34,510 nucleotides of DNA. Source: Burkholderiales bacterium. Its GTDB lineage: Bacteria > Pseudomonadota > Gammaproteobacteria > Burkholderiales > Burkholderiaceae_C. Numbering within the stretch: position 1 is the stretch's first letter; every line of letters starts with the position of its first letter. The notes beneath the pieces are model-generated. The model saw only the letters and a list, made by a program, of their open reading frames with translations, was not told the DNA's origin and ran no database searches. This document shows positions 7,437 to 34,510 of the stretch, piece after piece. The stretch lies in the NCBI GenBank assembly GCA_947446685.1, contig CANFIC010000008.1, positions 1-34,510 on the forward strand, written 5' to 3'. The translations under genes were made by a program, and so were the position numbers.

Positions 7437-8705
7437 TCAATCCGGAGAAAAACGCCGGTAACGCCCCAGGGCCAGCAGCGAGGCAGAGCCTGCCAGCAAC
7501 AGCAAGGCCGACATCAGCAGCACCGAACTGTAGGAGCCGGTCCGGTCAAATGACTTGCCGAAAATGACCGGGCCGATGCCTGCGCCAAGCGCAAAAAAAC
7601 CGTACAGGGCGCCGTAAATGGCGCCGTAGCTCTTCAATCCGAAGTAGCGCGCGACAAGAAAGGCCATCAGGTCATATTCGACGCCAGCAGCAAATCCGAT
7701 CAGCATGATGGACAGTTGCGCTGATGCCAGGCTGAGCTCTCCACCGGCCAGCAACCAGCAGGCGATAGCGGGCATGCTGAGCAGGAAGAAGGCCACCCCT
7801 GGGGCCCAGAAACGGTCGATCAACCAGCCGCCGATGACACGACCTGCGATCACCGACAAGCCGATCAGCGCGACCAGGCTGACCACATCGCCGCGCTGGA
7901 ACCCGGCCACCTTGAGGATGTTTTCCATATTGGGAATCGGGCCGCCAACTGCGAAGGCGATCAGCATGAAGGCGATTGCCAGGCACCAGAAGCGCCAGTC
8001 GCGCAAGGCCTGGCGCATTGTCAGGCCCGGCGTGGCCTGGCTGCGCAAAGCCGCTGAAGCCCGGCGCTGTGCGGCATCTTCCCCGACATGTTCAACATCG
8101 TGAAAGAAGAAATAGGCAATCGGCAGCGCCAGCAGCAGCGGCATCGCGCCAACCACCAGATAGGCCGAACGCCAGCCATAGGCAAGGATCAGCCAGGCGG
8201 TCAATGGCTTGACGAAGAACCCGAACAAGCCGGTACCGAGCAGCGAGAGTCCGAGCGCCAGGCCCTTGTGCAGATCGAATCGGTTGTTCACCGCCCGCGT
8301 CCAGGTCACCGGCAAGGTGCCGGCCCCGCACAAGGCCATCACGCCCCAGTTCAGGTAGAACAGCTCGATCGAACCATTGCTGAGCGCAAAGCTCATGAAG
8401 GACAAGCTGAACAACACAATCGAGATCAGCGCGACCCGGCGCACGCCAAAGCGGTCAGCCAGCATGCCGACTGCCGGGCTGGCGACCAGAACGCCCAGGG
8501 TCATGATCGGCAGTCCGCCCATGATGGCGCCGAACTCCCAGCCGAAGGCCTTGTGCAGCTCCGGCGCCAGCATGCCGATGGTGTAAAAAGGCACCGGCGA
8601 CAGGCCCAGACCAATTCCGACCAGGGCTGAGAGAACAACGCCCCAACCAAGCCGGAATTCAGCGCTGCCGGGGCTGGAACTTGAGGTGTCGACTGGTTTC
8701 ATCAT
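7437..8705 (-). CDS. MFS transporter
   Basis: Multiple hydrophobic helices with MFS loop motif VGMLADRFGVRRVALIS; internal repeat GRVIGGWLIDRFW. Confidence 0.9.
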   Translation of the reverse strand: MMKPVDTSSSSPGSAEFRLGWGVVLSALVGIGLGLSPVPFYTIGMLAPELHKAFGWEFGAIMGGLPIMTLGVLVASPAVGMLADRFGVRRVALISIVLFSLSFMSFALSNGSIELFYLNWGVMALCGAGTLPVTWTRAVNNRFDLHKGLALGLSLLGTGLFGFFVKPLTAWLILAYGWRSAYLVVGAMPLLLALPIAYFFFHDVEHVGEDAAQRRASAALRSQATPGLTMRQALRDWRFWCLAIAFMLIAFAVGGPIPNMENILKVAGFQRGDVVSLVALIGLSVIAGRVIGGWLIDRFWAPGVAFFLLSMPAIACWLLAGGELSLASAQLSIMLIGFAAGVEYDLMAFLVARYFGLKSYGAIYGALYGFFALGAGIGPVIFGKSFDRTGSYSSVLLMSALLLLAGSASLLALGRYRRFSPD

Positions 8706-8753
8706 TTTTCAGCTTCTCATCGATGGAACTGTGGGCAATAAGTCATTCGGCGA

Positions 8754-9755
8754 TCAGAGCCGCACCAAGGCCTTGCCCTGGTTGCGACCCTGCATCAAGC
8801 GCACAAAGGCAGCCGGCGCGCTTTGCAGGCCCTCGGCGATGTCTTCGCGAAACTGCAATCTGCCGGCCAGGTAATGCGCCTTCATTTCGCTCAGCATCTG
8901 CTCCAGCGCATCCCAATGGTCATAGACGACCAGACCGCGCATGGTGGCGCGGGCACGGATCAACAAGGCCGGATTGATCGCCGTCGGCGCGGCGCCGTTG
9001 TACTGAGCCATCAGCCCGCACAGCACGACCCGCGCACCCAGCGCCAGACGTTCGAGCAGGGCCAGCAGCGTATCGCCACCGACATTGTCGAAATACACAT
9101 CGACGCCCTCAGGGCAAAGCCGGTCGAGCGCCTGACGCAGGTCTTCATCGCGGTAGTCAATACAGGCATCAAAGCCGGCCACCCCGGTGACCCAGGCACA
9201 TTTCTCCGGGCCGCCAGCGATGCCGATGACCCGGCAGCCCTTGATTTTGGCCAATTGACCGACGGTTGCACCGACCGGCCCGCTCGCAGCAGAGACGACC
9301 AGCGTATCGCCAGCCCGGGCATCGGCCAGACGGTTCAAACCCGCCCAGGCAGTCAAACCGGGCATACCCAGGCCGCCAAGGGCCAGCGTCGGCCGATCCA
9401 GCCAGGCCGGTACGCGGCGCGCCTGCGCCACCGCTGCAGCGTCGAGCAAGGCATGGCTGCGCCAACCGCAAGCAGCGACCCATTGCTCGCCGGCCGCCAT
9501 GGCCGGATGACGCGAGGCCAGCACCTCGACCAGGCCCTCGCCGCGAACCAGGTCGCCAATGCCGATCGAAGCGCTGAGGTGGCGGCCGGCCATCGCACTG
9601 CGCAGATAGGGGTCGAGCGACAGCGCCAGCACGCGGACCAGTACCTGCCCTTCTTCGGGCTGTGGCAGCTCGGCATGGCCAAAAGCAAAGTCGCTGGTTT
9701 CGGGCAAACCGACCGGCGTGCGTTGCAGCGTGATTTGTTCGATGTGCATCGGCAA
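8754..9755 (-). CDS. MDR-family NADP-dependent oxidoreductase (CurA/YncB-like)
   Basis: DTLVVSAASGPVGATVGQLAKIKGCRVIGIAGGPEKC; VDVYFDNVGGDTLLALLERLALGARVVLCGLMAQYN; QGKALVRL C-terminus. Confidence 0.92.
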   Translation of the reverse strand: MPMHIEQITLQRTPVGLPETSDFAFGHAELPQPEEGQVLVRVLALSLDPYLRSAMAGRHLSASIGIGDLVRGEGLVEVLASRHPAMAAGEQWVAACGWRSHALLDAAAVAQARRVPAWLDRPTLALGGLGMPGLTAWAGLNRLADARAGDTLVVSAASGPVGATVGQLAKIKGCRVIGIAGGPEKCAWVTGVAGFDACIDYRDEDLRQALDRLCPEGVDVYFDNVGGDTLLALLERLALGARVVLCGLMAQYNGAAPTAINPALLIRARATMRGLVVYDHWDALEQMLSEMKAHYLAGRLQFREDIAEGLQSAPAAFVRLMQGRNQGKALVRL

Positions 9756-9762
9756 GCGGCTT

Positions 9763-10629
9763 TCAGTGAGCTGTTGGCTTGAGGTTCAGGCAGGTATCGC
9801 GAAGGCTCAGCAAATGCTGCTGCATCGCCGCCATGCGCTGAACCATCGGCGCGGGAATATCGAGCGACCGCACCTGAGGCGGCAACTCCTTGGCCAGCAA
9901 GGCGTCGATCTGTTTCAGCAGGATCGAGCCCTGCCAGCGAAAAATCGTTGTCGGCACCCGCAGCGCCTGCACATTTTCTGCCCGTTCATGGTCGAAGGCG
10001 GCCCGGTAGGCCAGCGCATAGTCCGACCCGGCGGCCAGCAGCGCGGCAAAGGTGGCGTGGATCTCGTCAGCTGATGGAGGATCAGCCCGAAAGCGATGCG
10101 CATCGTCTTGCTCGAACCAGGGGAAATACTGCAGCATGCCAGCGCTGATGCGCCAGGCTTCGAGCAAATGGCTGCCATCGTCTCGCGGACTCAGGTCGGG
10201 GAAATAGTTCGCCACGATATGTTCATGCTCGGCAGGCTCGAAATGCGCAGCGTTGTCGAGCAGCAGGTGCAACAGAGCGGCCGGATGCTCCAAGGCATAA
10301 GCGATGGCCAATTGCGAACCGGTGGCCGAGCCGTAAAGAAGGAAGGGCTGGCCGATCACCTCGCTGAGCAGTTGATGCAATGGCGCCACATAGTCGGCCA
10401 GCGAAGCCGGCGGCGTAGGCAGCGGATCAGAGCCACCATAACCCGGCGTATCGACTGCCAAGACATGGAATTGATCTGCAAGCTGCTGCATCCAGGGTTC
10501 ATACATTGCCGAGCAGCGCGGTGACGCATGCAGCAACACCAGCGGCATGCCGCCACGCCCGGCCTCACGGTACTGCAGATGCAAGCCGCCGGACCATCGC
10601 ACATGGCGCTGGATCAAGCCTCGCTTCAT
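9763..10629 (-). CDS. alpha/beta-fold hydrolase
   Basis: MPLVLLHASPRCSAMYEPWMQQLADQFHVLAVDTPGYGGSDPLP pattern; nucleophile-elbow-like YGSATGSQLAIAYALEHP. Confidence 0.88.
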   Translation of the reverse strand: MKRGLIQRHVRWSGGLHLQYREAGRGGMPLVLLHASPRCSAMYEPWMQQLADQFHVLAVDTPGYGGSDPLPTPPASLADYVAPLHQLLSEVIGQPFLLYGSATGSQLAIAYALEHPAALLHLLLDNAAHFEPAEHEHIVANYFPDLSPRDDGSHLLEAWRISAGMLQYFPWFEQDDAHRFRADPPSADEIHATFAALLAAGSDYALAYRAAFDHERAENVQALRVPTTIFRWQGSILLKQIDALLAKELPPQVRSLDIPAPMVQRMAAMQQHLLSLRDTCLNLKPTAH

Positions 10630-16621: not shown

Positions 16622-17836
16622 ATGAGCAAATCCGCAGTACCCCAACCAAGCTGGCGGCAAGTCGGCAAGCACGCCGTCTTTCCACAGGCCTCGCATGACG
16701 AGATCGCACGCTTCGATTTCCTCACCAGGCTGAACATGCATCTTTCGCAGTCAGTGCTGCCGGGCGTCAAGCTGGCGTACGAGAGCCGCGTCAAGCCGGC
16801 CTTCTGCGCCGAGCATGGCCGCGCGCCAACTGACCGCCATGAAGTGCGCAAGGCGATGCAAAAGGACCTGCATTACCAGCTCTGGAGCGCGCTGCGTCGC
16901 AACACCATGGAGCAGCGCCAGCAAGCCGGTCGCAGCGTCGTGTTTCGCCAACTCGGCGCGCTGCGGACCATTGCCGATGCAATCAACGAAGGTGCGCCGA
17001 CGCTGAAGCTTGACCCCAACATCAGCTCGCCGCGCTACGCCACCGCGGTAGACATCCACTGCATGCCGGGCTGCTACCACACCGAGGTGATCGACCGCGA
17101 CATCGCCGCCGGCGCCAACTATGACGCCGGCCTGTTCGTCACCACGGCCGGCGCGCTGGGCAGCTATTCCGACGGCGGCGGGCAGGCGGTGGTCGACTGG
17201 CTGGCCAAAAACAAACCGGGTTGGTCGCCCAAGCGCATCCTCGACATCGGCTGCACCATCGGCCACAACATCGTGCCGCTGGCGCAGGCCTTCCCCGAAG
17301 CCGAGGTGATCGCCATCGACACCGCCGCAACGATGCTGCGTTATGCCCATGCGAGGGCGCGCTCGCTGGGCGTCAACAATATCGAATTCCGTCAGGCCAA
17401 CGGCGAGGGTCTGCCCTGGGCCGACGGCGAGTTCGACCTGGTCACGACCGCGATGTTCTGGCATGAGACCTCCACCGCCGCGATGCCACGCATCATGAAG
17501 GAAGTGCACCGCGTGCTGTCGCCGGGCGGGCTGACGCTGCACCTGGAGCAGCCGCAGTACCAGGGCATGGAGCCGTTCGAGGCCTTCATGCGTGACTGGG
17601 ACACCTACAACAACAACGAGCCGTTCTGGACCCGCATGCATGAGGCCGATCTCGACGCGCTGATCACCAAGAGCGGCTTCCCGGCCGGCTCCTATTTCGA
17701 AACCACGATGCAGGCCAAGGTCGACCGCACGCTGTTCCCTGCTGCCGGCGGCACCGAGGGCGGCAAGCTCGAAGACTACGGTCGCTCACCGCGCTGGACC
17801 GCCTTCGGTGCAGCCAAACCAGGAGTCACAGCATGA
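16622..17836 (+). CDS. class I SAM-dependent methyltransferase with long (~200 aa) N-terminal extension
   Basis: RILDIGCTIGHNIVPLAQAFPEAEVIAIDTAATMLRYAHARA, LPWADGEFDLVTTAMFWHE, MKEVHRVLSPGGLTLHLE; internal ATG 16622 chosen downstream of the promoter. Confidence 0.9.
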   Translation: MSKSAVPQPSWRQVGKHAVFPQASHDEIARFDFLTRLNMHLSQSVLPGVKLAYESRVKPAFCAEHGRAPTDRHEVRKAMQKDLHYQLWSALRRNTMEQRQQAGRSVVFRQLGALRTIADAINEGAPTLKLDPNISSPRYATAVDIHCMPGCYHTEVIDRDIAAGANYDAGLFVTTAGALGSYSDGGGQAVVDWLAKNKPGWSPKRILDIGCTIGHNIVPLAQAFPEAEVIAIDTAATMLRYAHARARSLGVNNIEFRQANGEGLPWADGEFDLVTTAMFWHETSTAAMPRIMKEVHRVLSPGGLTLHLEQPQYQGMEPFEAFMRDWDTYNNNEPFWTRMHEADLDALITKSGFPAGSYFETTMQAKVDRTLFPAAGGTEGGKLEDYGRSPRWTAFGAAKPGVTA

Positions 17837-20824: not shown

Positions 20825-21777
20825 CGAGTGCACCCAAGCGCGATGTGCTGGTCAGCGAAGTCGGCCCGCGCGACGGACTGCAAAGCATCCAGGCCATCAT
20901 GCCGCTGGCCGCGAAGAAGGCCTGGGTAACGGCGGCCGCCGCAGCCGGCGTGCCCGAGATCGAGGTCGGCTCCTTCGTCCCGGCCCATATCCTGCCGCAG
21001 TTGGCCGACACGGCCGAGCTGGTCGCCCATGCGTTGACCATCGCCGGCCTGAGCGTGGCCGTGCTGGTGCCCAACTTCAAGGGCGCGCAGGCCGCAGTGG
21101 CCAGCGGCGCGCACAAGCTCACCCTCCCGCTGTCGGTCAGCGAGACGCACAGCCTGCGCAATCTGCGCCGCAATCACGCCCAGATGCTCGACGAGGTGCG
21201 CCAGATCGCCGCGCTGATCAAGAGCTTGCCGGCCGGCCAGCGCCCGCATTTCGAGGGCAGCCTGTCGACAGCCTTTGGCTGCACGCTCGAAGGCGTGGTG
21301 CCCGAGCAGCGGGTGGTCGAGTTGGCCGTCGCGCTGATGGAGGCCGGCTGCGACGAGGTGGGGCTGTCGGACACGACCGGCTACGCCAATCCGGCCCAGG
21401 TCAAGCGCTTGATCAAGTCGATCTGGTCTGCCGTCGGGCGCGATCAGCTGAGCGGCATCCACCTGCACAACACCCGCGGCCAGGGCTTGGCCAATGTGGT
21501 GGCAGCGCTCGACATGGGCCTGACCACCATCGACGCCTCGCTCGGCGGCCTGGGCGGCTGCCCGTTCGCACCCGGCGCCAGCGGCAATATCGTCACCGAG
21601 GACCTGGTCTTCATGCTCGAAGCGATGGGCTTGCGCACCGGCATCGACCTCGACGCCTTGTTTGCCGTGCGCGAGATCGTCAGCGCCGCGCTACCCGGCG
21701 AGCCGCTCTACGGCATGACGCCGCTGGCCGGCCTGCCCCTGGGCTTTGTCCCTGCAACAACAAAAAAACATCAATGA
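20821..21777 (+). CDS. HMG-CoA-lyase-like (HMGL/DRE-TIM) protein
   Basis: VLVSEVGPRDGLQSIQAIMPLAAKKAWVTAAAAAGVPEIEVGSFV; DEVGLSDTTGYANPAQVKRL; IHLHNTRGQGLANVVAALDMGLTTIDASLGGLGGCPFAPGASGNIVTEDLVFMLEAMG; ATGA overlap. Confidence 0.95.
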   Translation: MTSAPKRDVLVSEVGPRDGLQSIQAIMPLAAKKAWVTAAAAAGVPEIEVGSFVPAHILPQLADTAELVAHALTIAGLSVAVLVPNFKGAQAAVASGAHKLTLPLSVSETHSLRNLRRNHAQMLDEVRQIAALIKSLPAGQRPHFEGSLSTAFGCTLEGVVPEQRVVELAVALMEAGCDEVGLSDTTGYANPAQVKRLIKSIWSAVGRDQLSGIHLHNTRGQGLANVVAALDMGLTTIDASLGGLGGCPFAPGASGNIVTEDLVFMLEAMGLRTGIDLDALFAVREIVSAALPGEPLYGMTPLAGLPLGFVPATTKKHQ

Positions 21778-22958
21778 CCGAACAAGAACTGCCCCTGGCG
21801 GGCCTCAAGGTGATCGAGTTCACCCATATGGTGATGGGCCCCAGCATCGGGTTGATCCTGGCCGACATGGGCGCGCAGGTGAGCAAGGTCGAGCCGGTCG
21901 AGGGCGACAACACGCGCCGCCTGACCGGCTCGGGCGCGGGCTACTTCGCGATGTACAACCGCAACAAGAAGAGCCTGGCGATCGATGTGAAGTCCGCCGC
22001 CGGACGCCAGGTGGTGCTGGACTTGCTGGCCGATGCCGATGTGCTGATCGAGAACTTCCGCGGTGGCGCGATGGACGAGCTGGGCTTTGGCTACGAAGCG
22101 CTGGCTGCGATCAACCCGCGGCTGATTTACTGCTCGGGCAAGGGCTTTCTGAGCGGGCCTTACGAGAGCCGCACGGCGCTGGACGAAGTCGCGCAGATGA
22201 TGGGCGGCCTGGCTTATATGACCGGCCTGCCGGACAAACCGATGCGCGCCGGTGCCTCGGTGATCGACGTGACCGGCGCCATGTTCGGCGTGATCGGCAT
22301 CCTGGGCGCGCTCGAGCAGCGCCGCCGCAGCGGCCTGGGCCAATATGTCAAGACCTCGCTGTACGAGACCACGGCCTTCCTGGTGGGCCAGCATATGGCG
22401 CAGTTCGCCACCACCGGCAAGGCCGCCCCGCCGATGTCGGTGCGCCAGTCGGCCTGGGCGGTCTACGACGTGTTCGAGACATCAGACGGCGAGCGCGTCT
22501 TTGCCGCCGTCGTCAGCGATACGCAATGGCGCAAGTTCTGCGAATCCTTCGGGCTGGCCGAATTCCTCGCCGACCCGGCGCTGGCCAAGAACACCGAACG
22601 GGTCCGCCAGCGCGAACGCACCATCCCGGTGATCCGCGAGCGCTTCAAACGGCTGGACAAGGCCGGCCTGATGGCCCAGCTCGAGGCGACCGGTCTGCCC
22701 TTCGCGCCGATTGCCAAGCCCGAGGAGTTGTTCGACGACCCGCACCTGAACGCCGCCGGGGGACTGGTGGGCATCACGCTGCAGGACGGCCGGACGACCA
22801 AGCTGCCGGCCTTGCCGATCGAGATGGCGGGCCGGCGCTTCGGCCTGCGCCACGACCTGCCGCAGATCGGCGCCAACAGCCGCGAGTTGTTGCTGGCGCG
22901 GGGCTTGAGCCCGGCCGAGATCGACGCCCTGGTCGAGCAAGGCGTGATCAGGCCATGA
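21774..22958 (+). CDS. CaiB/BaiF family CoA-transferase (copy 2)
   Basis: GLKVIEFTHMVMGPSIGLILADMGAQVSKVEPVEGDNTRRL; MYNRNKKSLAIDVKSAAGRQVVLDLLADADVLIENFRGGAMDELG; ATGA overlaps at both ends. Confidence 0.96.
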   Translation: MTEQELPLAGLKVIEFTHMVMGPSIGLILADMGAQVSKVEPVEGDNTRRLTGSGAGYFAMYNRNKKSLAIDVKSAAGRQVVLDLLADADVLIENFRGGAMDELGFGYEALAAINPRLIYCSGKGFLSGPYESRTALDEVAQMMGGLAYMTGLPDKPMRAGASVIDVTGAMFGVIGILGALEQRRRSGLGQYVKTSLYETTAFLVGQHMAQFATTGKAAPPMSVRQSAWAVYDVFETSDGERVFAAVVSDTQWRKFCESFGLAEFLADPALAKNTERVRQRERTIPVIRERFKRLDKAGLMAQLEATGLPFAPIAKPEELFDDPHLNAAGGLVGITLQDGRTTKLPALPIEMAGRRFGLRHDLPQIGANSRELLLARGLSPAEIDALVEQGVIRP

Positions 22959-24367
22959 GCGGTCTGTCGCTGTTCGAGAAGCTCTGGCGCCAGCATTGCA
23001 TCACCGAACTGGCTGACGGCGCGAGCCTGATCCACATCGACCGCATCTTCTTGCATGAACGCACCGGTGGTGTGGCCTTGCAGGCGCTGGACGAGGCCGG
23101 GTACGCGGTGCGCAACCCGCAACTGGCCTTTGCGACGCTGGACCATATCGTCGACACCTTGCCCGGCCGCAGCGACAAGACCTTGATGCCCGGCGGCGAG
23201 GCCTTCATCCGCATCACGCGCGAGCAAACCAGGCGCAACGGCATCCAGCTGTTCGACCTGGGTGACGCGCGCCAGGGCATCGTGCATGTGGTCTCGCCCG
23301 AGCTGGCCATCGTGCTGCCGGGCGCCACAATGGTCTGCGCCGACAGCCACACCTGCACCCAGGGCGCGCTCGGTGCGCTGGCCTGGGGCATCGGCAGCTC
23401 GGAGGCCGAACATGCGCTGGCCACGCAGACGCTCAGGATCGTCAAGCCCCGGTCGATGCGCGTCACCTTCGACGGCAGCCTGCCGCCCGGCGTGGGCGCC
23501 AAGGACATGATCCTGGCCCTGATCGCGCGCGACAGCGCCTCGGGCGCCCAAGGCTCAGTGGTCGAGTTTGCCGGCCAGGCCGTGCGAGAACTGAGCCTGG
23601 AAGCGCGCATGACCTTGTGCAATATGGCGGTGGAGTTCTCGGCCTTCACCGGCCTGATCGCACCCGATCAAGCCACCTTCGACTATCTCGAGGGCCGGCC
23701 CTTCGCGCCCAAAGGCGAGGGCTGGACGCAAGCGCTTGAGGCCTGGCGCGAGCTGCACAGCGACGCCGATGCGCAGTTCGATTTCGAGACCCGCCTGGAC
23801 GTCAGCCGCCTCAGCCCGATGCTGACCTGGGGCACCAGCCCGCAGCATGCGGTGGCGGTGAATCAGCGGGTGCCCGATCCGGCTGAAGTCAGCGACGCGG
23901 CGACAAGCCAGGCGATGGCAAAGGCGCTGGCCTATATGGACTTGCTGCCGGGTCAGGCCTTGGCCGGCTTGCCGATTGACGCGGCCTTCATCGGCTCTTG
24001 CACCAACAGCCGAATCTCCGACCTGCGCGCTGCGGCCGAGTTGCTGCGCGGGCGCAAGGTCGCTGCCGGCGTGAAGGCGATCTGCGTGCCGGGCTCGACC
24101 CAGGTCAAGCAGGCGGCCGAGGCCGAAGGCCTGGACCAGGTTTTTATCGACGCCGGTTTTGAGTGGCGCGAGTCGGGCTGCTCGATGTGCTTCTTCGCCG
24201 GCGGCGAGAGCTTTGGCCATCAGCAGCGCGTGGTGAGCACGACCAACCGCAACTTCGAGAGCCGCCAGGGGCCGCTCACGCGCACCCATCTGGCCAGCCC
24301 GGTCCTGGTGGCGGCTTCGGCCATCGCGGGCTGCATCGCCGATCCTCGCCAACTACAAGATGACTGA
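22955..24367 (+). CDS. LeuC-like hydro-lyase large subunit (aconitase superfamily)
   Basis: CADSHTCTQGALGALAWGIGSSEAEHALATQTL; FIGSCTNSRISDLRAAAELL; SGCSMCFFAGGESFGHQQRVVSTTNRNFESRQGP (Fe-S Cys motifs). Confidence 0.93.
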   Translation: MSGLSLFEKLWRQHCITELADGASLIHIDRIFLHERTGGVALQALDEAGYAVRNPQLAFATLDHIVDTLPGRSDKTLMPGGEAFIRITREQTRRNGIQLFDLGDARQGIVHVVSPELAIVLPGATMVCADSHTCTQGALGALAWGIGSSEAEHALATQTLRIVKPRSMRVTFDGSLPPGVGAKDMILALIARDSASGAQGSVVEFAGQAVRELSLEARMTLCNMAVEFSAFTGLIAPDQATFDYLEGRPFAPKGEGWTQALEAWRELHSDADAQFDFETRLDVSRLSPMLTWGTSPQHAVAVNQRVPDPAEVSDAATSQAMAKALAYMDLLPGQALAGLPIDAAFIGSCTNSRISDLRAAAELLRGRKVAAGVKAICVPGSTQVKQAAEAEGLDQVFIDAGFEWRESGCSMCFFAGGESFGHQQRVVSTTNRNFESRQGPLTRTHLASPVLVAASAIAGCIADPRQLQDD

Positions 24368-25001
24368 AATGGACAAGTTCATCACCCATGAAGGCGTGGC
24401 GGCGGCCCTGCTGCGCAGCAATATCGACACCGACGCGATCATCCCCTCGCGCGAGATGAAGACCGTCTCCAAGACCGGCCTGGCCGGCGGGCTGTTCGCC
24501 GGCTGGCGCTATCTGGATGTGCAGACCCGTCAACCCAACCCCGACTTCGTGCTGAACCGGCCCGAACAGCAGGGCAGCTCGATCTTGCTGGCAGGCATCA
24601 ACTTCGGTTGCGGCTCGTCGCGCGAGCATGCGGTCTGGGCGCTCAAGGAATACGGCATCCGCGTCGTCGTGGCGCCCAGCTTCGGCGCGATTTTTGCGGG
24701 CAACTGTGTCAGGAACGGTTTGTTGCCGCTGGTGCTGAGCGAGGGCCAGATTGCCGAACTCGCCAGCAGCAGCGCCGCTGATCCGCAGACAAGGCGCCTG
24801 CGGGTCGATCTTGAACGCAATAGTCTCAGCGATGCCCAAGGCCGCTCTTACCCCTTCAGCCTGGCCGCCAGCCAGCGCGAGATGCTGCTCAAGGGGCTCG
24901 ACCCGATCGCGCTGACCCTCGAACTGAGCCCCGCGATCGATGCCTTCCAGGCCGAGGACCGCCAAGCCCGGCCCTGGATTTATATAGACCAGGCCGGCTG
25001 A
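24360..25001 (+). CDS. LeuD-like hydro-lyase small subunit
   Basis: NIDTDAIIPSREMKTVSKTGLAGGLFAGWRY; GINFGCGSSREHAVWALKEYGIRVVVAPSFGAIFAGNCVRNGLLPLVL. Confidence 0.94.
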   Translation: MTEMDKFITHEGVAAALLRSNIDTDAIIPSREMKTVSKTGLAGGLFAGWRYLDVQTRQPNPDFVLNRPEQQGSSILLAGINFGCGSSREHAVWALKEYGIRVVVAPSFGAIFAGNCVRNGLLPLVLSEGQIAELASSSAADPQTRRLRVDLERNSLSDAQGRSYPFSLAASQREMLLKGLDPIALTLELSPAIDAFQAEDRQARPWIYIDQAG

Positions 25002-25852
25002 TGCTCAATCGCCCACACACCGAATTCGTCCAGTCGCAGATGCTGCCTTGGCGACGCATCCCGCCCGGCGCAGCCAGGCCGGACGCCGAATACAAGTTCC
25101 TCAGCCGCGACCCGGATGACGGCGCTTGCACCTGCTTGATCCGCTATGCGCCGGGTTGGGCAAGGCTGGCCGACGAATACCTCGATGCGACCGAAGAGTT
25201 CTATGTGCTTGAGGGCGAGATCGAAGTCAACGGGCTGGTCTACAAGGCCGACCATTACGGGCATATCCCGAAGCAGGCGCTGCGCCACTCGATGTCAACC
25301 CGAAGCGGTGCGGTGGTGCTGACTTTCTTTGATGCCCAGCCGGAATTCCATGCCGAAGGCAGCGCCACATCGGCGGCGAGCGAAGCGCTGCTGCACCGCG
25401 ATGTGTTGCACATGCCCTGGGACATGAAGGTCAACGACGCCAAGCTGGCCCATCTGGGCATCTCGCGCAAGGACTTGCGTGCCGACCCGGTGAGCGGCGA
25501 ACGCACCTTTTTGTCGATGATGCTGCCGCATTCCGAACCACCCGGCTCGCATGGACCGCGCGAATCGCATCCGGTGGTCGAGGAATGTTTCGTCATCGCC
25601 GGCTCGCTGGTCGGCCCCTATGGCGAGATGCATGCGGGTGCTTATTTCTGGCGTCCGCCGGGCATTCCGCATGGACCCTTTGGTACCCGCTGGGGCTGCG
25701 TGGCGCTGATCCGTTTCGTCGGCGGCCGCCATGTCAACATCTGGACCGTCGACGAAGCGCCGTTCGACTTCCATCAGCCTTATCGGCCGGTATTACCACC
25801 CGAATATGCGCACCTGAGCGCCCTACCCTGGGTGCCGCCGCAGGCTTATTGA
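25001..25852 (+). CDS. bicupin protein (ChrR-type/DUF4437-like cupin)
   Basis: LIRYAPGWARLADEYLDATEEFYVLEGEIEVNGLVYKADHYGHIPKQALRHSM; second cupin repeat HPVVEECFVIAGSLVGPYGEMHAGAYFWRPPGIPHGPFGTRWGCVALIRF. Confidence 0.85.
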   Translation: MLNRPHTEFVQSQMLPWRRIPPGAARPDAEYKFLSRDPDDGACTCLIRYAPGWARLADEYLDATEEFYVLEGEIEVNGLVYKADHYGHIPKQALRHSMSTRSGAVVLTFFDAQPEFHAEGSATSAASEALLHRDVLHMPWDMKVNDAKLAHLGISRKDLRADPVSGERTFLSMMLPHSEPPGSHGPRESHPVVEECFVIAGSLVGPYGEMHAGAYFWRPPGIPHGPFGTRWGCVALIRFVGGRHVNIWTVDEAPFDFHQPYRPVLPPEYAHLSALPWVPPQAY

Positions 25853-25880: not shown

Positions 25881-27824
25881 TCAAGGCGAGCGGTCCAGGG
25901 CCTCGATCTCCTTGAGTCGGCGCCACAGCGTTGTGCGGCTGATCGAAAGCGCCTGGGCTGCGCCCTGCCGGCTACCCTTGGCGGCCTGCAGCGCCGCCAG
26001 AATGCGCGCGTCATCGAGCAAGACCGGAGCTTCCTCCTCAACAGCCGCAGTCAACTCAGGGATCAAGCCCTGTGCAAGCTCGGGCGCCTCGCGCAGGAAC
26101 AGCGAATACTCGACCTCGCCCGACTCGGGCAAGCCGAACAGGAACACGGCGAAGCGTTCCATCAGGTTTTCCAACTCGCGGATATTGCCCGGCCAACGGT
26201 ACTGACGCAGCAGCGGCAGCAGCGGCAAGAGCAGGGGCTCGGCCGACAAGGTACTGCCCAGCTCGAGCAGCTTGGCTTCGAGCAACTGGCTTGCCAAGGC
26301 ATGCAGATCCTCGGGTCGTTCGCGCAGCGGCGGCAGCGAGACCAGCAGGATGTTCAGCCGGTAGAACAGGTCAGCGCGAAACAGGCCTTCGGCAATGCGG
26401 TTTTCAAGCGAGCGGTGGGTCGCGGCAATCACTCGCACGTCGATCGCGATCGGTGCATTGCTGCCCAAACGGACAACCTCACGCTCCTGCAATACCCGCA
26501 GCAAGCGGGTCTGCAAGGAGATCGGCATATCGCCGATCTCATCCAGAAAAACCGTACCGGTATGGGCTGCTTCAAACAGACCGGGTTTGCCGCCTTTGCG
26601 CGAGCCAGTGAAGGCGCCTTCTTCATGGCCGAACAACTCGCTCTCGAGCAGCGACTCAGGAAACGATGCGCAGTTCAGCGTCACGAATGGCCCGCGCTGG
26701 CGTTCGCTGGCGTTGTGAATCGCCTGCGCGAACAACTCCTTGCCGGTGCCGGTTTCGCCGGTGATCAACACGGTTGAGGCGGTCCTGGCGCAGCGGCCAG
26801 CCACGCCCCGGGCATAGGCCAGCGCGGGGCTGTTGCCGGTGATCAGATCGAAGCTGTAGCGCGCTGCCACGCTCTTGGGCCGGCGCTGCGATCGGATCGT
26901 CGTGTCGGCACGATGAATCGCGCTGGTGTCGCGCAAGGTCAGCAAAGCGCCGGTGATGCCGCCGCGCTCATGGATCGCGGTGCGGTTCATCAGCAAGCTG
27001 CTGCGCCCAAGCTGGATCACCATGTCCAGGTCATCGTCCTGCCCGGCCAAAACAGAGGCCAGCGACAACTCGCTGGCCAGATCCGGCAAGCGCAAGCCGA
27101 TCGGACTGCTTGCATCGAGGCCGAGAATCCGCCGCATCAGCGGGTTGATCGCCGTGATGCGGTGTTGCATATCGACAGCCAGGATCGCTTCATGCAGATG
27201 GGCAAAAGCGGCATTCAGGTTTTCATATTTCGAATCCTGGCGGATCGCGTTTTCACCCAGTTGCACAGCCTCTTCCAGCGCGCGCTCGACCGAGTCGTTG
27301 CTGTAGATCAGGATGCCATGCAAGCCATTTTGCTCGGCCAGATCGACGATCAGGCTCGAACCCACCACCACCTCGATGCCCTGTGCCATCAAGGTCTGGA
27401 AATGCCCGCGCGCCTCGGCCAGGGTTTCATAGCTGAACTGGAACAGCTCGACTTTCAACAGGTCCTTGACCGAATCGAGCAAGGGCATGGTCTCGCGGAA
27501 GATCACCATCCCGACCCGGGATGACAGTTGCCGCGCCCGCTGCAATGCCAGCAGCAGGTCAAAGCCGGTGACCTCTATGCTGACGACCGGCAAATCCAGT
27601 TGCGATCTCAGCATCACGGCGATCGAGCCGGCGCTGACGAGCACATCGATGTCACCGCGCTGTTGCATCTGGCGCCCGCGCAGCACTGCATCCTCCAGCG
27701 TGTATTCGTCGACGATGATCTCGGCGCGATCGCGCACCCGACTCTCGGCATGGCGCAGCAATCGCGTCAAGGCCTTGTAGGTCAGCACACAGATGCGGGG
27801 TTTGCGTTGATGAATGAAAGCCAT
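25881..27824 (-). CDS. PrpR-type sigma54-dependent transcriptional activator
   Basis: PrpR_N-like ICVLTYKALTRLLRHAESRVRDRAEIIVDEYTLEDAV..; AAA+ GETGTGKELFAQAIHNAS, ELFGHEEGAFTGSRKGGKPGLFEAAHTGTVFLDEIGDM; C-terminal HTH SRQGAAQALSISRTTLWRRLKE. Confidence 0.95.
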   Translation of the reverse strand: MAFIHQRKPRICVLTYKALTRLLRHAESRVRDRAEIIVDEYTLEDAVLRGRQMQQRGDIDVLVSAGSIAVMLRSQLDLPVVSIEVTGFDLLLALQRARQLSSRVGMVIFRETMPLLDSVKDLLKVELFQFSYETLAEARGHFQTLMAQGIEVVVGSSLIVDLAEQNGLHGILIYSNDSVERALEEAVQLGENAIRQDSKYENLNAAFAHLHEAILAVDMQHRITAINPLMRRILGLDASSPIGLRLPDLASELSLASVLAGQDDDLDMVIQLGRSSLLMNRTAIHERGGITGALLTLRDTSAIHRADTTIRSQRRPKSVAARYSFDLITGNSPALAYARGVAGRCARTASTVLITGETGTGKELFAQAIHNASERQRGPFVTLNCASFPESLLESELFGHEEGAFTGSRKGGKPGLFEAAHTGTVFLDEIGDMPISLQTRLLRVLQEREVVRLGSNAPIAIDVRVIAATHRSLENRIAEGLFRADLFYRLNILLVSLPPLRERPEDLHALASQLLEAKLLELGSTLSAEPLLLPLLPLLRQYRWPGNIRELENLMERFAVFLFGLPESGEVEYSLFLREAPELAQGLIPELTAAVEEEAPVLLDDARILAALQAAKGSRQGAAQALSISRTTLWRRLKEIEALDRSP

Positions 27825-27876: not shown

Positions 27877-27917
27877 TGAAACATTGAACGTTGCAGCAGT
27901 TCGATGGATATGTTTCA
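27877..27917. promoter_or_regulatory. candidate upstream activator site: TGAAACAT-N25-ATGTTTCA
   Basis: Perfect 8-bp arms (27877-27884 / 27910-27917) between the divergent activator and the -24/-12 promoter, centred ~119 bp upstream of the predicted TSS. Confidence 0.55.
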
Positions 27918-27989: not shown

Positions 27990-28005
27990 TGGCAAGCATC
28001 TTGCT
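27990..28005 (+). promoter_or_regulatory. sigma54 (-24/-12) promoter
   Basis: TGGCAAGCATCTTGCT vs consensus TGGCACGNNNNTTGCW: one mismatch, exact GG-N10-GC spacing. Confidence 0.78.
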
Positions 28006-28137: not shown

Positions 28138-29181
28138 ATGTTCCAGCTATTTAGTAAGTTCACCCTATGCATGACCCTGGGCCTGCTGGTCCCGACGATG
28201 GCGATCGCACAAGCGCCTTCAGCCAGCAGTCTGGCTGCGGACCGGAAAGCCGAGCTGGCCCGCTTCCTCGAATGGTTCGGTGGCGAATGGGACAACTTCG
28301 AACAGGTCTGGCAGCGCAAAACCGACAACGAGACAAGAGCCGCTGCCCAACCGCCTTTGCCGGAACTGGCGCCGATCGCCAACAGCCACCATATCCTCGT
28401 TCCGGTGGCAGCACCAAAGGTCGGCGGCCAGCTGTTCTACATGCAGCAAAGCCTGGGTGCCGACCTGTCAAAAGTCTACCGACAGCGCCTCTACCGAGTC
28501 ACGCCTGACGCTAGCAGCCAGGCGATCAAGCTCGAAATTTTTTCCCTGCCCGATGAAAAATCCTTCGTCGACGCCCACCTGAAACCGGCCTTGTTCGCGC
28601 AACTCGATCCCGCCTCGCTACGCGCCATACCGGGCTGCGAGCAGTACTGGCGCTACCAGGCCAGTGCCAAGGAATATATCGGCAGCATGCTTCCAGGCGC
28701 CTGCAGCAAGGCAGCGGCCGAAGCCGGCAGCCTGGCCACTGATCTGGTGAAGCTGGGCGAGAAGGAACTCTGGATCAGCGAACAAGCTCGCAATCAGCAA
28801 GGCAGCCAGAGCGGGACGACGATCAGGACCCGCAAGGTGCGTTACTACCTCGGCTGGATGTTCGGCAAGGACAGCGACGGCCGGCGCCTGCAAGGCCGGC
28901 GCGACTTGCAACTGCACAACGAAGGCCAGATCGTCACCCTGAATTTTGAAGACGGCAGCCCGAGCAAGTTGCAGATCCAGTTGGCTCAGCTGACCTACCA
29001 GAACACAAGGGCAGCGATCCTGAAACTGACTCTGCTCGACCAGAGCACCGGCAAGACGATCGCCTACACCTGGAGCGATCCGGAATCAAACACCATCGGC
29101 ATGAACCTCGGCTGGATCCAGTTCGGCTTCAAGCCGAAAACCTCTGATCTTGCTTTTGGTTTCGCCAGCAAGCCCGATTGA
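28138..29181 (+). CDS. CpcT/CpeT-family (bilin-lyase-like) exported protein
   Basis: Signal peptide MFQLFSKFTLCMTLGLLVPTMAIAQA; FLEWFGGEWDNFEQV; YRQRLYRVTPD; IPGCEQYWRYQASAKEYIGSMLPGACSK; KELWISEQARN. Start at ATG 28138 with GAGGA RBS, not the ORF-track 27904. Confidence 0.75.
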   Translation: MFQLFSKFTLCMTLGLLVPTMAIAQAPSASSLAADRKAELARFLEWFGGEWDNFEQVWQRKTDNETRAAAQPPLPELAPIANSHHILVPVAAPKVGGQLFYMQQSLGADLSKVYRQRLYRVTPDASSQAIKLEIFSLPDEKSFVDAHLKPALFAQLDPASLRAIPGCEQYWRYQASAKEYIGSMLPGACSKAAAEAGSLATDLVKLGEKELWISEQARNQQGSQSGTTIRTRKVRYYLGWMFGKDSDGRRLQGRRDLQLHNEGQIVTLNFEDGSPSKLQIQLAQLTYQNTRAAILKLTLLDQSTGKTIAYTWSDPESNTIGMNLGWIQFGFKPKTSDLAFGFASKPD

Positions 29182-29290: not shown

Positions 29291-30853
29291 ATGAAATCCA
29301 CGCAAGCAAAAATGCACAATCCACTCTCATCAAGCGCCAAAGCTGCGCCCGAAGCGCTGGTCGTCGACTGGCTGGCTGACATCGCGAGGATCTATCCGCA
29401 GCAGGCCTCGCTGATTGACCTGGTCACCGGACGGCGTTTTGTCTACCACCAGACTTTCGACCGCGTCTGCCGGCTGGCTGCAGTTTTTCGCAGCCAGGGT
29501 TGTACAAGGGGTGACCGGGTGATGGCCTTGGTGCGCAACTCCACCGATGTCTACGAAATGATGTTTGCATGCTGGCGCATCGGTGCGGTCTTCATGCCGG
29601 TGAACTGGCGGCTTGCACCGGCTGAACTGGCCGCCATTCATTCTGATGGCGATCCGGCGCTGCTCATCGTCGATGACGAATTTGCGGCCAATCTGGACAG
29701 CTCGGGCAAGCCGCGGCTGTCGAGATCGCCAGGTTCTGCGACCAGCAGTTATGAACGCGCTTTGGCAGCCGCTTTGCCTGACCGCAGCTTCGCGGCGATC
29801 GATCTCGACGCGATGAACATGCTGATGTACACCTCGGGTACGACCGGCAAGCCCAAGGGTGTGATCGGCAACTGGCGCATGACGACGACGATGCTCTTGC
29901 AGGCGGCCACCAATGCCAGGCTCGGACCGGGTTGCGTCACGCTGACGGCTGCACCGCTGTTCCACACGGCCGGACTGAACTCCTTCGCGACGCCGACGCT
30001 GCATGTCGGTGGCGCGATTGCGGTGATGGACAACTGGCAGCCGGGCGCCTGCCTTGCACATCTGCGCGATCCTGATTTGAAAATCACCCATACCCTGGGC
30101 GTACCGACGCAATTTCTGGCGATGTCCAGGCATGCTGATTTTTCGGCTGGCGGATTTCCATTCTTGCGGGTGGCTGCCGTCGGAGGCGCGCCACCGACCG
30201 AGGAGCTGATGCGGACCTGGGCTGAGAAAGGCCATGCCTTGATGCCAGGTTACGGCATGACCGAAGCGTTCGGCGTCGCCAATATGGAGCCGGAACTGGC
30301 AATGCGAAAGCCCGGTGCTGTAGGTCGCGCAATGGCAATGACCAGGCTGCGCATCGCCGATGAACAGGGCCTCGAATTGCCGGCTGGCGAGCGCGGCGAA
30401 ATCCAGTTGGCCGGCCCCGGCATCACGCCCGGCTATTGGCGCCAGCCCGAGCTCACGCAGGCCGCCTTCGTCGACGGCTGGTTTCGCACCGGCGACATCG
30501 GTTTCATGGATAGCGATGGCATCTGTTTCCTGGTTGACCGCAAGAAGGACATGTTCATTTCTGGCGGTGAAAACGTCTACCCGGCTGAAGTGGAAAACCT
30601 GCTGGCGGATTTCCCCGAGATCTCGCAGGTCGCGGTGATCGGCATCAAAGATCCGGTCTGGGGTGAAGTCGGCAAGGCCATCGTCGTACTCAGGCCAGGC
30701 GCCGCAGTCGATGCCGCCGAACTGCTCGGCCGCTGCCGCGGCAGGATCGCCGCCTACAAGATCCCCAAAGCAATGCTGATCTTGCCTTCGCTGCCCTTGA
30801 GCGCGCAGGGCAAAGTCATGAAAAACGAACTGAGGAAGCTCTATGGCGGCTAA
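29291..30853 (+). CDS. AMP-dependent acyl-CoA synthetase/ligase
   Basis: MLMYTSGTTGKPKGVIGNW; GYGMTEAFGVANMEPEL; GWFRTGDIGFMDSDGICFLVDRKKDMFISGGENVYPAEVENLL; PKAMLILPSLPLSAQGKVMKNELR. Confidence 0.96.
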   Translation: MKSTQAKMHNPLSSSAKAAPEALVVDWLADIARIYPQQASLIDLVTGRRFVYHQTFDRVCRLAAVFRSQGCTRGDRVMALVRNSTDVYEMMFACWRIGAVFMPVNWRLAPAELAAIHSDGDPALLIVDDEFAANLDSSGKPRLSRSPGSATSSYERALAAALPDRSFAAIDLDAMNMLMYTSGTTGKPKGVIGNWRMTTTMLLQAATNARLGPGCVTLTAAPLFHTAGLNSFATPTLHVGGAIAVMDNWQPGACLAHLRDPDLKITHTLGVPTQFLAMSRHADFSAGGFPFLRVAAVGGAPPTEELMRTWAEKGHALMPGYGMTEAFGVANMEPELAMRKPGAVGRAMAMTRLRIADEQGLELPAGERGEIQLAGPGITPGYWRQPELTQAAFVDGWFRTGDIGFMDSDGICFLVDRKKDMFISGGENVYPAEVENLLADFPEISQVAVIGIKDPVWGEVGKAIVVLRPGAAVDAAELLGRCRGRIAAYKIPKAMLILPSLPLSAQGKVMKNELRKLYGG

Positions 30854-31817
30854 TTCAACCGACAAGATCGAAAGCCACATGGCACGGATCAAAGCAAGGC
30901 TGGTCCTGCCTGTCATCGCAGCACCGATGTTTCTGGTATCCGGGCCGGAACTGGTCATCGCCGCCTGCAAGGCCGGCGTGATCGGCTCGTTCCCGACCTT
31001 GAACGCACGCCCGATCGAAGTCCTGGAGGATTGGTTTCAGCGCATCGTTCGCGAGCTCGAATTATTCCGGGCAGCGGGTGGCAATCCAGCCCCCTGGGCA
31101 GCCAATTTGATCGTGCATCGCAGCAATGCTCGCGCCGATCAGGATGTGGCTTTGACCCTGAAATACCGGCCGGAAATCGTCATCACCGCGCTGGGCACTC
31201 CGGCGGGTGTGGTGGCTGCGGTCCATGATTATGGCGGGCTGGTGTTCGCCGATGTCAACTCGGTTGCCTACGCCCGCAAGGCAGCGGCAGCAGGCGCAGA
31301 TGGACTGGTCCTGGTGGCCTCGGGTGCGGGCGGCCATACCGGCCCGCTGAATGCGTTCTCGTTTGTCCCGGCAGTTCGGGAGTTCTTCGACGGCCCGATC
31401 ATTCTCGGCGGCGGCATCATCAATGGCAGGGGGGTGCGAGCAGCGCAAATGCTCGGCGCAGACTTCGCCTATATCGGCACGCGCTTCATCGCCACAATTG
31501 AAAGCATGGCCCCTCAGGCCTACAAGCAGATGCTGGTCGATTGCACCGAGGAAGACATCATCTGCTCAAGCCATTTCACCGGGGTTGCTGCCAACTACCT
31601 CAAGCCGAGCATCATCAAGGCCGGGATCGATCCGGCTCAACTCGGTGTGCGCAAGGAAATGAAATTTGACCATCGCGGCGATTCTGCAGAAGCCAAGGCA
31701 TGGAAGGACATCTGGGCGGCCGGCCAAGGCGTACGGGCGATCACCTCGGTGCTCAGTACGGCCGATCTGGTCGATGAACTGGCGCGTGATTACGCTGCCG
31801 CAGCCCCGCCTGTATGA
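30843..31817 (+). CDS. nitronate monooxygenase-like FMN enzyme (2-nitropropane dioxygenase family)
   Basis: LPVIAAPMFLVSGPELVIAACKAGVIGSFPTLNARP; GADGLVLVASGAGGHTGPLNAFSFVPAVREFFDGPIILGGGIINGRGVRAAQMLGADFAYIGTRFIAT. Confidence 0.94.
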   Translation: MAANSTDKIESHMARIKARLVLPVIAAPMFLVSGPELVIAACKAGVIGSFPTLNARPIEVLEDWFQRIVRELELFRAAGGNPAPWAANLIVHRSNARADQDVALTLKYRPEIVITALGTPAGVVAAVHDYGGLVFADVNSVAYARKAAAAGADGLVLVASGAGGHTGPLNAFSFVPAVREFFDGPIILGGGIINGRGVRAAQMLGADFAYIGTRFIATIESMAPQAYKQMLVDCTEEDIICSSHFTGVAANYLKPSIIKAGIDPAQLGVRKEMKFDHRGDSAEAKAWKDIWAAGQGVRAITSVLSTADLVDELARDYAAAAPPV

Positions 31818-32218
31818 ACGCAGTCGACATCGCAACGCTGCCGCGCATTGCGGCACGCGAGTTCCTTTGCGGAGAAGTCCTTGCGCTTGACGCTGCAAGC
31901 GGTGCCGCGCAACTGCGCTACCGGGTGACCGAAATGCACCTCAACCTGGCTGGAACCGCATTTGGCGGATTTCTCGCCGCCATGATCGACGACGCTGCTG
32001 GCCTGGCCGCCTGGTTCGGCGCTAGGCAGCGACCCTTCGCCACCGTCACCATGACCGTCAATTTTCTCAGCGCAGCCAGAGTCGGCGATGCCTTGCTGGC
32101 CGATGTCCTGGTGACTCAATCGGGTTCGCGCCAGGCTTTTATCGAGGTTCGCCTGGCCCATGAATCAAGCCAAAGATTGGTGGCGACAGCCACCGTCGTG
32201 CAAAGTTTTCTGGCCTGA
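31814..32218 (+). CDS. PaaI-like hot-dog thioesterase
   Basis: MHLNLAGTAFGGFLAAMIDDAAGLAAW; ATVTMTVNFLSAARVGDALLADVLVTQSGSRQAFIEVRL. Confidence 0.88.
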   Translation: MNAVDIATLPRIAAREFLCGEVLALDAASGAAQLRYRVTEMHLNLAGTAFGGFLAAMIDDAAGLAAWFGARQRPFATVTMTVNFLSAARVGDALLADVLVTQSGSRQAFIEVRLAHESSQRLVATATVVQSFLA

Positions 32219-32306: not shown

Positions 32307-33914
32307 ATGACTGAGATGATGCGGTCGGTTGAATTGGATGATGATCTCTTGGCCTCGCTGGCCTCGCTATGCGGTGCCGAGGCGTTGGCGGTCGACTCTG
32401 CCTCGCGCCAGCTGGCAGCCCACGACATCTTTTTCGAGGCCGCGGCATGGCCCGAATTTGTCTTCGCGCCGACCGATCTGGCTTCGCTTGCCGGGGCCGT
32501 CGCGCGGATCACGGCGGCGGGGCTGGCCGTGGCACCCCGGGGCGGCGGGATGTCCTATAGCGGCGGCTATCTGCCCGCTCAGCGCTACGCCTGCATCGAT
32601 CTCTCCAAGTTGAACCGGGTCATCGAAGTCAATAGCGCCGACCTTTACATCACGGTCGAAGCCGGCTGCACCTGGGCTCAATTGCGCGAAGCGCTTGCCG
32701 GTACCGGGCTTGCCACGCCTTTCGGCGGGCCTTTGTCGGGCTTGCGCGCTACTGTCGGCGGCGCTTTGTCGCAGAACAGCGTGTTTTTCGGGGCCGGCCA
32801 GCATGGCACTGCGGCCGAGTCGGTGCTGGCGCTGCAGGTGGTGCTGGCCGACGGTCAGATCCTGCACACCGGCAGCGCCGGTTTCACTTCAGCCAGCCCT
32901 TTCAGCCGCAGCGGCGGGCCGGACCTAACCGGCTTGTTCCTGGGTGACACCGGCGCCATGGGCGTGAAAGCATCGGCCACCTTGCGCCTGGTGCCGGTGC
33001 CAGCCGCGCAAGGTTATGCGTCCTACGGTTTCCAGACTATCGCCGACATGGTCGGCGCCCAGATCGACTTGATGCGCAAAGGCCTGGGCTCGGAATGCTT
33101 CGGCATCGATGCCTTCAAGGCCACCCACTCTGCACAGACCGGCAACAAGCTCGCAGCCGGCGTCAAGACTCTGGGCGAGATTGCGCGCTCAGGGCCTTCC
33201 CTGCTGGCCGGCTTGAAGGCGGCAGCTGGCGTGGCGCTGGCCGGCACCGACTATCTGGCCGTGCACCCCTACTCGATCCACTTGAGCCTGGATGGCGACA
33301 GCAAGGCCCATGTCGATGACCGCCTGGCGCGGGTGGCGCAGATCGCGGCAGACCATCACGGCACAGCCCAGCCCGCCTCAGTGCCCCAGGTCTTGCGCGC
33401 ACAGCCTTTCCAGCCGCTGCGTTCGGTGCTGGGCTACAACGGCGACCGCTGGGTGCCGGTGCATGGCATCCTGCCGCTTTCAAAGGCACAGCAGGCGGTA
33501 CGCGAGGTCGAGGCCTTGATCGCCAGCCATGCCGGGCAAATGCATGAGCACCAAATCATCTACTCCCCGCTGACTGCAAACCTCGACCGGGCCTTCCTGT
33601 TCGAGCCCTGCTTTTACTGGCCAGACGCGATCAAGCCGCTGCACATCGATGTGCTCGGGCAGGCCTTGACCAAGCCTTGGCAGGGGCGGCCTGCCGCACC
33701 CCTGGCCCATGCGCTGGTGGAACAGCTCTGGAAGGAGGTGGTCGACTGCCTGGACCGTCATGGCGCTGTGCATTTCCAGATCGGCCGGGCCTACCCCTAT
33801 CTGCAGCGCCTGCAACCGGCAACAAGGAGCCTGCTGGAAGCGTTGAAACAGCATCTTGACCCGGATGGCCGGATGAATCCGGGCAGCCTGGGCCTGGCTG
33901 CGACGCCGCCATGA
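32307..33914 (+). CDS. FAD-linked oxidase (FAD_binding_4 / VAO-type)
   Basis: WPEFVFAPTDLASLAGAVARITAAGLAVAPRGGGMSYSGGYLP; TVEAGCTWAQLREALAGTGLATPFGGPLSGLRATVGGALSQNSVFFGAGQHGTAAESVLALQVVLADG; LFLGDTGAMGVKASATLRLVP. Confidence 0.93.
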   Translation: MTEMMRSVELDDDLLASLASLCGAEALAVDSASRQLAAHDIFFEAAAWPEFVFAPTDLASLAGAVARITAAGLAVAPRGGGMSYSGGYLPAQRYACIDLSKLNRVIEVNSADLYITVEAGCTWAQLREALAGTGLATPFGGPLSGLRATVGGALSQNSVFFGAGQHGTAAESVLALQVVLADGQILHTGSAGFTSASPFSRSGGPDLTGLFLGDTGAMGVKASATLRLVPVPAAQGYASYGFQTIADMVGAQIDLMRKGLGSECFGIDAFKATHSAQTGNKLAAGVKTLGEIARSGPSLLAGLKAAAGVALAGTDYLAVHPYSIHLSLDGDSKAHVDDRLARVAQIAADHHGTAQPASVPQVLRAQPFQPLRSVLGYNGDRWVPVHGILPLSKAQQAVREVEALIASHAGQMHEHQIIYSPLTANLDRAFLFEPCFYWPDAIKPLHIDVLGQALTKPWQGRPAAPLAHALVEQLWKEVVDCLDRHGAVHFQIGRAYPYLQRLQPATRSLLEALKQHLDPDGRMNPGSLGLAATPP

Positions 33915-34510
33915 ATCGTTCAGTTGCAACCCTGGGATTCCCGATGATGCTCAAGTCCATCTTGCCCGCCTTGCTGGCAGTTCTCAGCATCGCACCGGCT
34001 TCGGCCGATGATGTTGTGGTCCTGCGCACCGGCTCGTTTGCCCCGCCAGGCAGCGTTTTTGTCCAGTTCTGGCAGCAGTTCAAGAGCAATATCGAGCGCG
34101 ACAGCAAGGGCAGCATCAGGGTCGAGCTGAACACCAGCGACCCCAACGAAGCCAACCTGCTCTCCAACCTCCGGCGCGGCCGGATCGAATGCGTTGGCGC
34201 TTCGCTGCAGGGTTCGGCAACGATCCTGCCCGAGGTGGCGGTGCTGCAACTGCCCTATCTGTTTGCATCGTTCAAGGAAGTCGACCAGGCTTATGACAAG
34301 CGCTTGACCGACACCTACCGCAAGCTGTTTGCCGCCAAGGGTCTGGCGATGCTGCAGTTCGTCGAGGTCGGTTTCACCCATAGCTACAGCGTTCAACCGG
34401 TCAGAACACCCGCCGATCTCAAGGGCCTGAAAATGCGCGCAACCCAGTCGCGTGCGTCACAGACCTGGATCAAGTCGGTCGGGGCTGAGCCGGTGGTGCT
34501 GCCGATCTCC
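33911..34510 (+). CDS. TRAP transporter substrate-binding protein DctP family (truncated by window end)
   Basis: My translation from ATG 33911 (ATGA overlap with the FAD oxidase): MNRSVATLGFPMMLKSILPALLAVLSIAPASADDVVVLRTGSFAPPGSVFVQFWQQF..., AVLQLPYLFASFKEVDQAYD, VRTPADLKGLKMRATQSR. Open to the window end and absent from the ORF track. Confidence 0.88.
   Translation, partial: MNRSVATLGFPMMLKSILPALLAVLSIAPASADDVVVLRTGSFAPPGSVFVQFWQQFKSNIERDSKGSIRVELNTSDPNEANLLSNLRRGRIECVGASLQGSATILPEVAVLQLPYLFASFKEVDQAYDKRLTDTYRKLFAAKGLAMLQFVEVGFTHSYSVQPVRTPADLKGLKMRATQSRASQTWIKSVGAEPVVLPIS

Follow-up and report, generated by a model that had tools for sequence, protein, structure and literature searches.

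The cpeT locus and its gene content

We analysed a 34,510-nucleotide stretch of DNA, referred to here as the window, from a freshwater Burkholderiales bacterium whose genome is 91% complete. Coordinates of the features are given in Table 1. The gene of interest, cpeT, encodes a CpeT/CpcT-family protein and occurs once in the host genome. Its open reading frame was confirmed, with an ATG at 28138 downstream of a GAGG sequence; an alternative in-frame ATG is present at 27904. Almost the entire contig, from 7437 to 34510, forms one catabolic supercluster common to distant proteobacteria.

Table 1. Features of the window
Feature	Position	Strand	Evidence or remark
MFS transporter, MDR dehydrogenase, alpha/beta hydrolase	7437..10629	-	far end of cluster
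CaiB	10626-11783	-	
Acyl-CoA dehydrogenase	11780-12961	-	
RipB/Ich-like hydratase	12961-13479	-	
RipC/Ccl-like lyase	13503-14408	-	
PuuE/imidase-like hydrolase	14336-15217	-	
SDR	15237-16094	-	
HapK/REDY-like protein	16091-16396	-	
Methyltransferase	16622..17836	+	conserved among clusters
Isochorismatase-family amidohydrolase	18301-18975	+	
Two PuuE/imidase-like hydrolases	18972-19889, 19892-20824	+	
HMG-CoA-lyase-like enzyme	20821-21777	+	
CaiB CoA-transferase	21774-22958	+	
LeuC-like and LeuD-like subunits	22955..25001	+	dedicated hydro-lyase
ChrR-type cupin (Cupin_7/DUF4437)	25001..25852	+	relative in the G835 cluster
PrpR-like sigma54 activator, divergent to cpeT	25881..27824	-	PrpR_N 2.6e-43; Sigma54_activat 1.1e-67
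Sigma54-type -24/-12 element TGGCAAGcatcTTGCT	27990..28005	+	1 mismatch to TGGCACGN4TTGCW; upstream of cpeT
CpeT/CpcT-family protein (cpeT), 347 aa	28138..29181	+	PF06206; profile against CpcT 4o4o; alignment of relatives
Acyl-CoA ligase, nitronate-monooxygenase-like and 4HBT thioesterase genes	29291..32218	+	
FAD-linked oxidase (FAD_binding_4)	32307..33914	+	homologues inside the clusters of G1207, G1328 and G1327
DctP TRAP-type solute-binding protein	33944..34510	+	PF03480; ends at contig edge

Cyclic imide hydrolases are related to the PuuE/3qbu group (PMC9304392). Allantoin was considered as a substrate and rejected, as the PuuE-like and AllB-like enzymes all score under the allantoinase cut-offs. 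The lower pathway draws on the same enzyme families as RipABC itaconate degradation; it differs in that its RipB-like and RipC-like enzymes lie below the curated cut-offs (231 against 340 and 239 against 375, respectively) and are linked to ring-opening amidases. Dimethylmaleate hydratase, a LeuCD-like hydro-lyase, also matches the lower pathway by family. The HapK/REDY-like protein belongs to a family named for prodigiosin biosynthesis, is encoded in a catabolic operon and is conserved with the cluster. No TonB receptor, DUF1838 or amine oxidase gene was found on the window contig.

A probably exported two-domain member of the CpcT/CpeT family

The N-terminus of the CpeT-like protein (approximately residues 1-25) is, judged by sequence, a Sec-type signal peptide, MFQLFSKFTLCMTLGLLVPTMAIAQA. 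Residues 43-223 of the 347 form the CpeT domain (PF06206; E = 6.8e-21, 75.4 bits against a curated cut-off of 21). A conserved extra C-terminal region of about 115 residues (approximately 228-340) follows, for which there is no significant match in Pfam or NCBIfam. This region also stands alone after a lipoprotein-like signal at L044:7651-9150. Most CpeT homologues appear to carry AxA or lipobox N-termini. The window protein is likely to be exported, in line with the signal peptide that the original prediction had recognised.

The gene is scarce. Of the genomes searched, it was found in 2 of 18 from the genus, 1 of 201 from the family and 4 of 399 from the phylum; a close relative with 97% identity is carried by a Paucibacter toxinivorans metagenome-assembled genome (L002). 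A search of plasmids gave no relative, a search of phages gave only a distant match, to cyanophage CpeT, and the two-domain form was not found among viral contigs.

Family membership had been proposed from short motifs, and profile comparison bears it out. Compared as a single sequence, the protein matches CpcT poorly (E = 0.91); a profile built from 15 relatives matches CpcT (4o4o) with E = 1.2e-28 and Arabidopsis CRL with E = 7e-10. We compared residues in an alignment of 40 CpeT-like relatives with CpcT. The YRQR motif of the window protein falls opposite YRLR in CpcT and FRQR in CRL, and all 40 homologues share the cysteine of the PGCE motif. Every sequence has the cysteines that correspond to CpcT positions 116 and 137, and N20, Q23, R66 and R68 are commonly present. 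The window protein itself keeps N20, Q23, Y65, R66, R68, C116 and C137, with the Y-R-x-R motif and the cysteine pair falling at Y114, R115, R117, C167 and C189. In CpcT, arginines at the mouth of the barrel anchor the bilin propionates. The full pocket set is not retained: E54, R97 and D163 of the CpcT pocket are replaced by Q, L and E. Two CpeT proteins encoded in clusters lack YRxR.

An AlphaFold model of the CpeT domain (pLDDT 70, pTM 0.70) gave CpcT with phycocyanobilin (4o4s) as its top Foldseek match in the PDB (E = 5e-8, TM 0.66-0.68), followed by phage CpeT, CRL and fatty-acid-binding proteins. The input alignment for this model contained cyanophage CpeT sequences, so that the match to the CpcT barrel, which the original prediction had advised looking for, is partly circular; it agrees with the profile result and supports it, and is not independent of it. 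Taken as modelled, the CpeT domain likely has a CpcT-type calycin fold; a single-sequence model of the full-length protein reached a pLDDT of only 36.6 and was not usable.

The closest known proteins each share part of this picture. T-type lyases of the CpcT/CpeT group (PF06206; 4o4o, 4o4s, 5hi8) have in common with the window protein the domain homology, the predicted calycin barrel, Y65-R66-x-R68, C116 and C137. The window protein differs from them in being exported, in its additional C-terminal region of about 115 residues, in its catabolic neighbours, in the loss of E54 and R97, and in a non-phototrophic host in which no heme oxygenase was found. Plant CRL (CRUMPLED LEAF; 6lix/6liy) is likewise a CpcT-family protein outside phycobilisomes and shares EQ...FRQR and D-R-G motifs, but is a plastid protein without the two cysteines, and no such C-terminal region appears in its match. 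Proteins of about 200 residues with a PF06206 domain in other Proteobacteria (L039 and L040 type) share an exported CpeT domain outside cyanobacteria, and differ in having a single domain, other neighbours and only 20-22% identity.

A putative sigma54-controlled gene

The intergenic gap upstream of cpeT contains the sigma54-type element TGGCAAGcatcTTGCT, for which 0.006 occurrences are expected by chance in that gap. The element is identical in the sister genome, G215 (L038). The divergent regulator also matches TIGR02329, with 541.6 bits against a cut-off of 499. With both the element and the activator present, cpeT is a putative sigma54-controlled gene under a PrpR-type activator. An inverted repeat, TGAAACAT/ATGTTTCA (27877-27917), was considered as the activator site and rejected, as repeats of this quality arise in 18% of shuffled sequences and it is thus within chance.

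Phototrophy and bilin synthesis

The host had been described as apparently non-phototrophic, and genome searches agree with this. No match to the reaction-centre family PF00124 was found in the 91% complete host genome; reaction-centre genes were present in just one of the relatives checked, G494. A search covering heme oxygenases of the PF01126 type gave no match in nine genomes with CpeT, the 91% complete host included. The absence of matches for either gene argues that the protein is neither a phycobilisome lyase nor part of an evident bilin-making system; with no heme oxygenase found, any bilin would be external in origin.

The catabolic cluster is conserved in distant lineages

A survey of neighbours in other genomes, as the original prediction had advised, recovered the same large catabolic gene set around cpeT in distant lineages. 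The same gene families are found no more than about 30 kb from cpeT in G000/G215, G1207, G835, G1328, G1327 and G1333/G1367/G1387. The shared families are allantoinase/imidase-like ring openers, amide hydrolases, a LeuCD-like hydratase, CaiB, HMG-CoA-lyase-like enzymes, RipB/RipC-like enzymes and HapK, to which a TonB receptor, DUF1838 and a flavin amine oxidase are often added. LeuC, LeuD, CaiB and the HMG-CoA-lyase-like enzyme all occur within that distance of cpeT in G1207 (a different family in the same order), in G835 (another order of the same class), and in G1328, G1327, G1333 and G1367 (another class of the same phylum). These clusters were located starting from cpeT, so the tie between cpeT and the cluster is overstated by the counts; gene calls beyond the window came from a simple script based on codon usage, and their starts are approximate as a result.

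In a tree of LeuC proteins, those encoded in the clusters form one group with support of 0.998, apart from most other LeuC copies; the group also takes in two further LeuC copies, one from the host genus and the other from G1328. A second branch, consisting of CaiB, acyl-CoA dehydrogenase, RipB-like and RipC-like enzymes, is present in several distant clusters. Clusters with this branch also contain HapK, SDR, PuuE-like, methyltransferase, FAD oxidase, MDR and VOC genes, and additionally DUF1838, a flavin amine oxidase and a TonB receptor. The enzymes that would open cyclic amides differ by genome, with three PuuE-like proteins in the window, a hydantoinase-like enzyme and a CN-hydrolase in G1207, and HyuA/HyuB in G835.

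The original prediction had placed cpeT between a sigma54 activator and acyl-CoA metabolism genes. The activator beside cpeT and the catabolic setting hold; the acyl-CoA ligase, NMO-like and 4HBT genes that follow cpeT in the window are absent from the matching place in the sister genome, where the FAD oxidase and TRAP genes come directly after cpeT. These acyl-CoA genes are outside the conserved context, and it is the larger ring-opening, amide-hydrolysing and dicarboxylate-CoA set that is conserved.

In two lineages, a TonB receptor gene precedes cpeT in the same orientation, and some 80-170 bases separate the two. Among 120 genomes of one order, CpeT is present in 13 of 14 that carry DUF1838 and in 10 of the 106 others (Fisher 1.7e-10, with kinship ignored). 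DUF1838 lies with CpeT, a TonB receptor and a flavin amine oxidase at L029:6612-7514, L097:7002-7949, L104:11454-12374 and L046:14470-15393. A conserved protein of about 170 residues, weakly DUF3598_N-like, also accompanies the cluster (L122:6773-7294, L104:10891-11397 and L097:6468-6971).

The association has exceptions in both directions. Two full clusters, in G1329 and G1325, have no cpeT nearby; in these (L161-L162 and L165-L166), two adjoining TonB hits occupy that part of the cluster. CpeT relatives in G952 and G1410 have no cluster within 20 kb, and some genomes carry several CpeT hits in different surroundings. G835 (L029, L033, L041, L042 and L110) has up to eight CpeT-profile hits, some beside amine oxidase or glyoxalase-like genes. 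In genus g311 (G494 and its relatives), loci were examined as candidates and not counted as clusters because the leuB/leuD-like pair near cpeT resembles that of house leucine biosynthesis.

A possible periplasmic ligand-binding protein in N-heterocycle catabolism

We propose, at roughly even confidence, that this exported two-domain CpcT/CpeT calycin is a periplasmic ligand-binding protein of a supercluster for the catabolism of a hydrophobic compound that contains nitrogen rings, and not a phycobiliprotein lyase. The analysis shows the homology, a likely fold, the export signal, a promoter-like site and the conservation of the gene set; in the following scheme we infer ligand binding, the order of the steps and the substrate. 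The PrpR-like activator would sense a pathway metabolite and switch on the sigma54 promoter of cpeT. Substrate would enter the periplasm, for which relatives probably use the TonB receptor of the cluster, and the CpeT barrel may hold it for periplasmic or membrane oxidases. After import of the fragments, PuuE/imidase-like or hydantoinase-like enzymes would open their rings, and amidases of the isochorismatase or nitrilase type would release the nitrogen as ammonia. This would leave branched dicarboxylic acids, to be hydrated by the LeuCD-like enzyme, activated by CaiB, and split by the HMG-CoA-lyase-like and RipB/RipC-like enzymes to an alpha-keto acid and an acyl-CoA.

This proposal can take two specific forms, which differ in the substrate. 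Our leading guess, and a doubtful one, is that a linear tetrapyrrole, or maleimides split from it, serves as substrate. The cluster would then degrade bilins or chlorophyll catabolites, with the CpeT-like protein as a periplasmic bilin binder; such a role for the locus is unlikely as matters stand. Rings would be oxidised to maleimides, opened by imidases and deaminated; the two lower branches would then hydrate and cleave the two kinds of disubstituted maleate. Tetrapyrroles fit because the solved relatives of the fold are bilin-related (4o4s, 6lix), because the single locus combines imide and amide hydrolases with two branched-dicarboxylate branches, and because oxidation of chlorophyll and heme is known to yield maleimides and hematinic acid, which have also been reported from lake sediments (PMC7318184). 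The HapK/REDY-like protein and the external origin of any bilin are also consistent with it. However, HapK-like and DUF1838 proteins have no assigned role here, some cluster members lack YRxR, and other N-heterocycles, cyclic amides among them, would require the same enzymes. A search of the literature available gave no bilin-degrading gene cluster. It is possible, if still short of probable, that another N-heterocycle of the alkaloid, hydantoin or lactam type is degraded, and that the CpeT barrel was co-opted for the binding of this hydrophobic compound. The ring openers are general for cyclic amides, calycins accept many ligands, fatty-acid-binding proteins rank after CpcT in the structural search, and E54 and R97 of the CpcT pocket are not retained; the frequent recruitment of a CpcT-type barrel is left unexplained by this reading.

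Two further readings were considered. The protein could serve more generally, as an exported lipocalin-like protein of the envelope or of stress responses, with an incidental position in the cluster. Many CpeT paralogues in unrelated surroundings and the two clusters without CpeT point this way, and up to eight hits per genome together with cluster-free relatives mean that the role may be generic. We regard an incidental position as improbable, since the same gene set recurs around cpeT in far-apart lineages and the gene has its own sigma54-type site beside the activator. A true bilin lyase that loads chromophore on a periplasmic protein in a non-phototroph would account for the homology and the partly kept CpcT residues. 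We rejected it as highly improbable: no heme oxygenase of the PF01126 type was detected in the 91% complete genome, the protein has an export signal, and the locus offers no acceptor candidate. The protein departs from T-type lyases in a host without evident bilin synthesis, in a predicted location outside the cytosol and in an incomplete set of pocket residues.

Homologues of CpcT in non-photosynthetic organisms were noted in a 2008 review, which suggested that they have extra functions (PMC2327270); we found no function assigned in the literature to bacterial CpcT-family proteins outside phycobilisomes. The CpcT fold itself is already known, and we found no earlier description in the literature of an exported form with two domains or of its link to the cluster. 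A form of the family linked to a conserved, regulated catabolic gene set provides a concrete, testable function. Chlorophyll production and breakdown amount to about 10^12 kg a year (PMC7318184). Should the substrate derive from tetrapyrroles, these would be candidate genes for the recycling of chlorophyll and bilins by aquatic bacteria, and a pigment-loading fold would have been adapted to pigment degradation, with mineralisation by way of maleimides.
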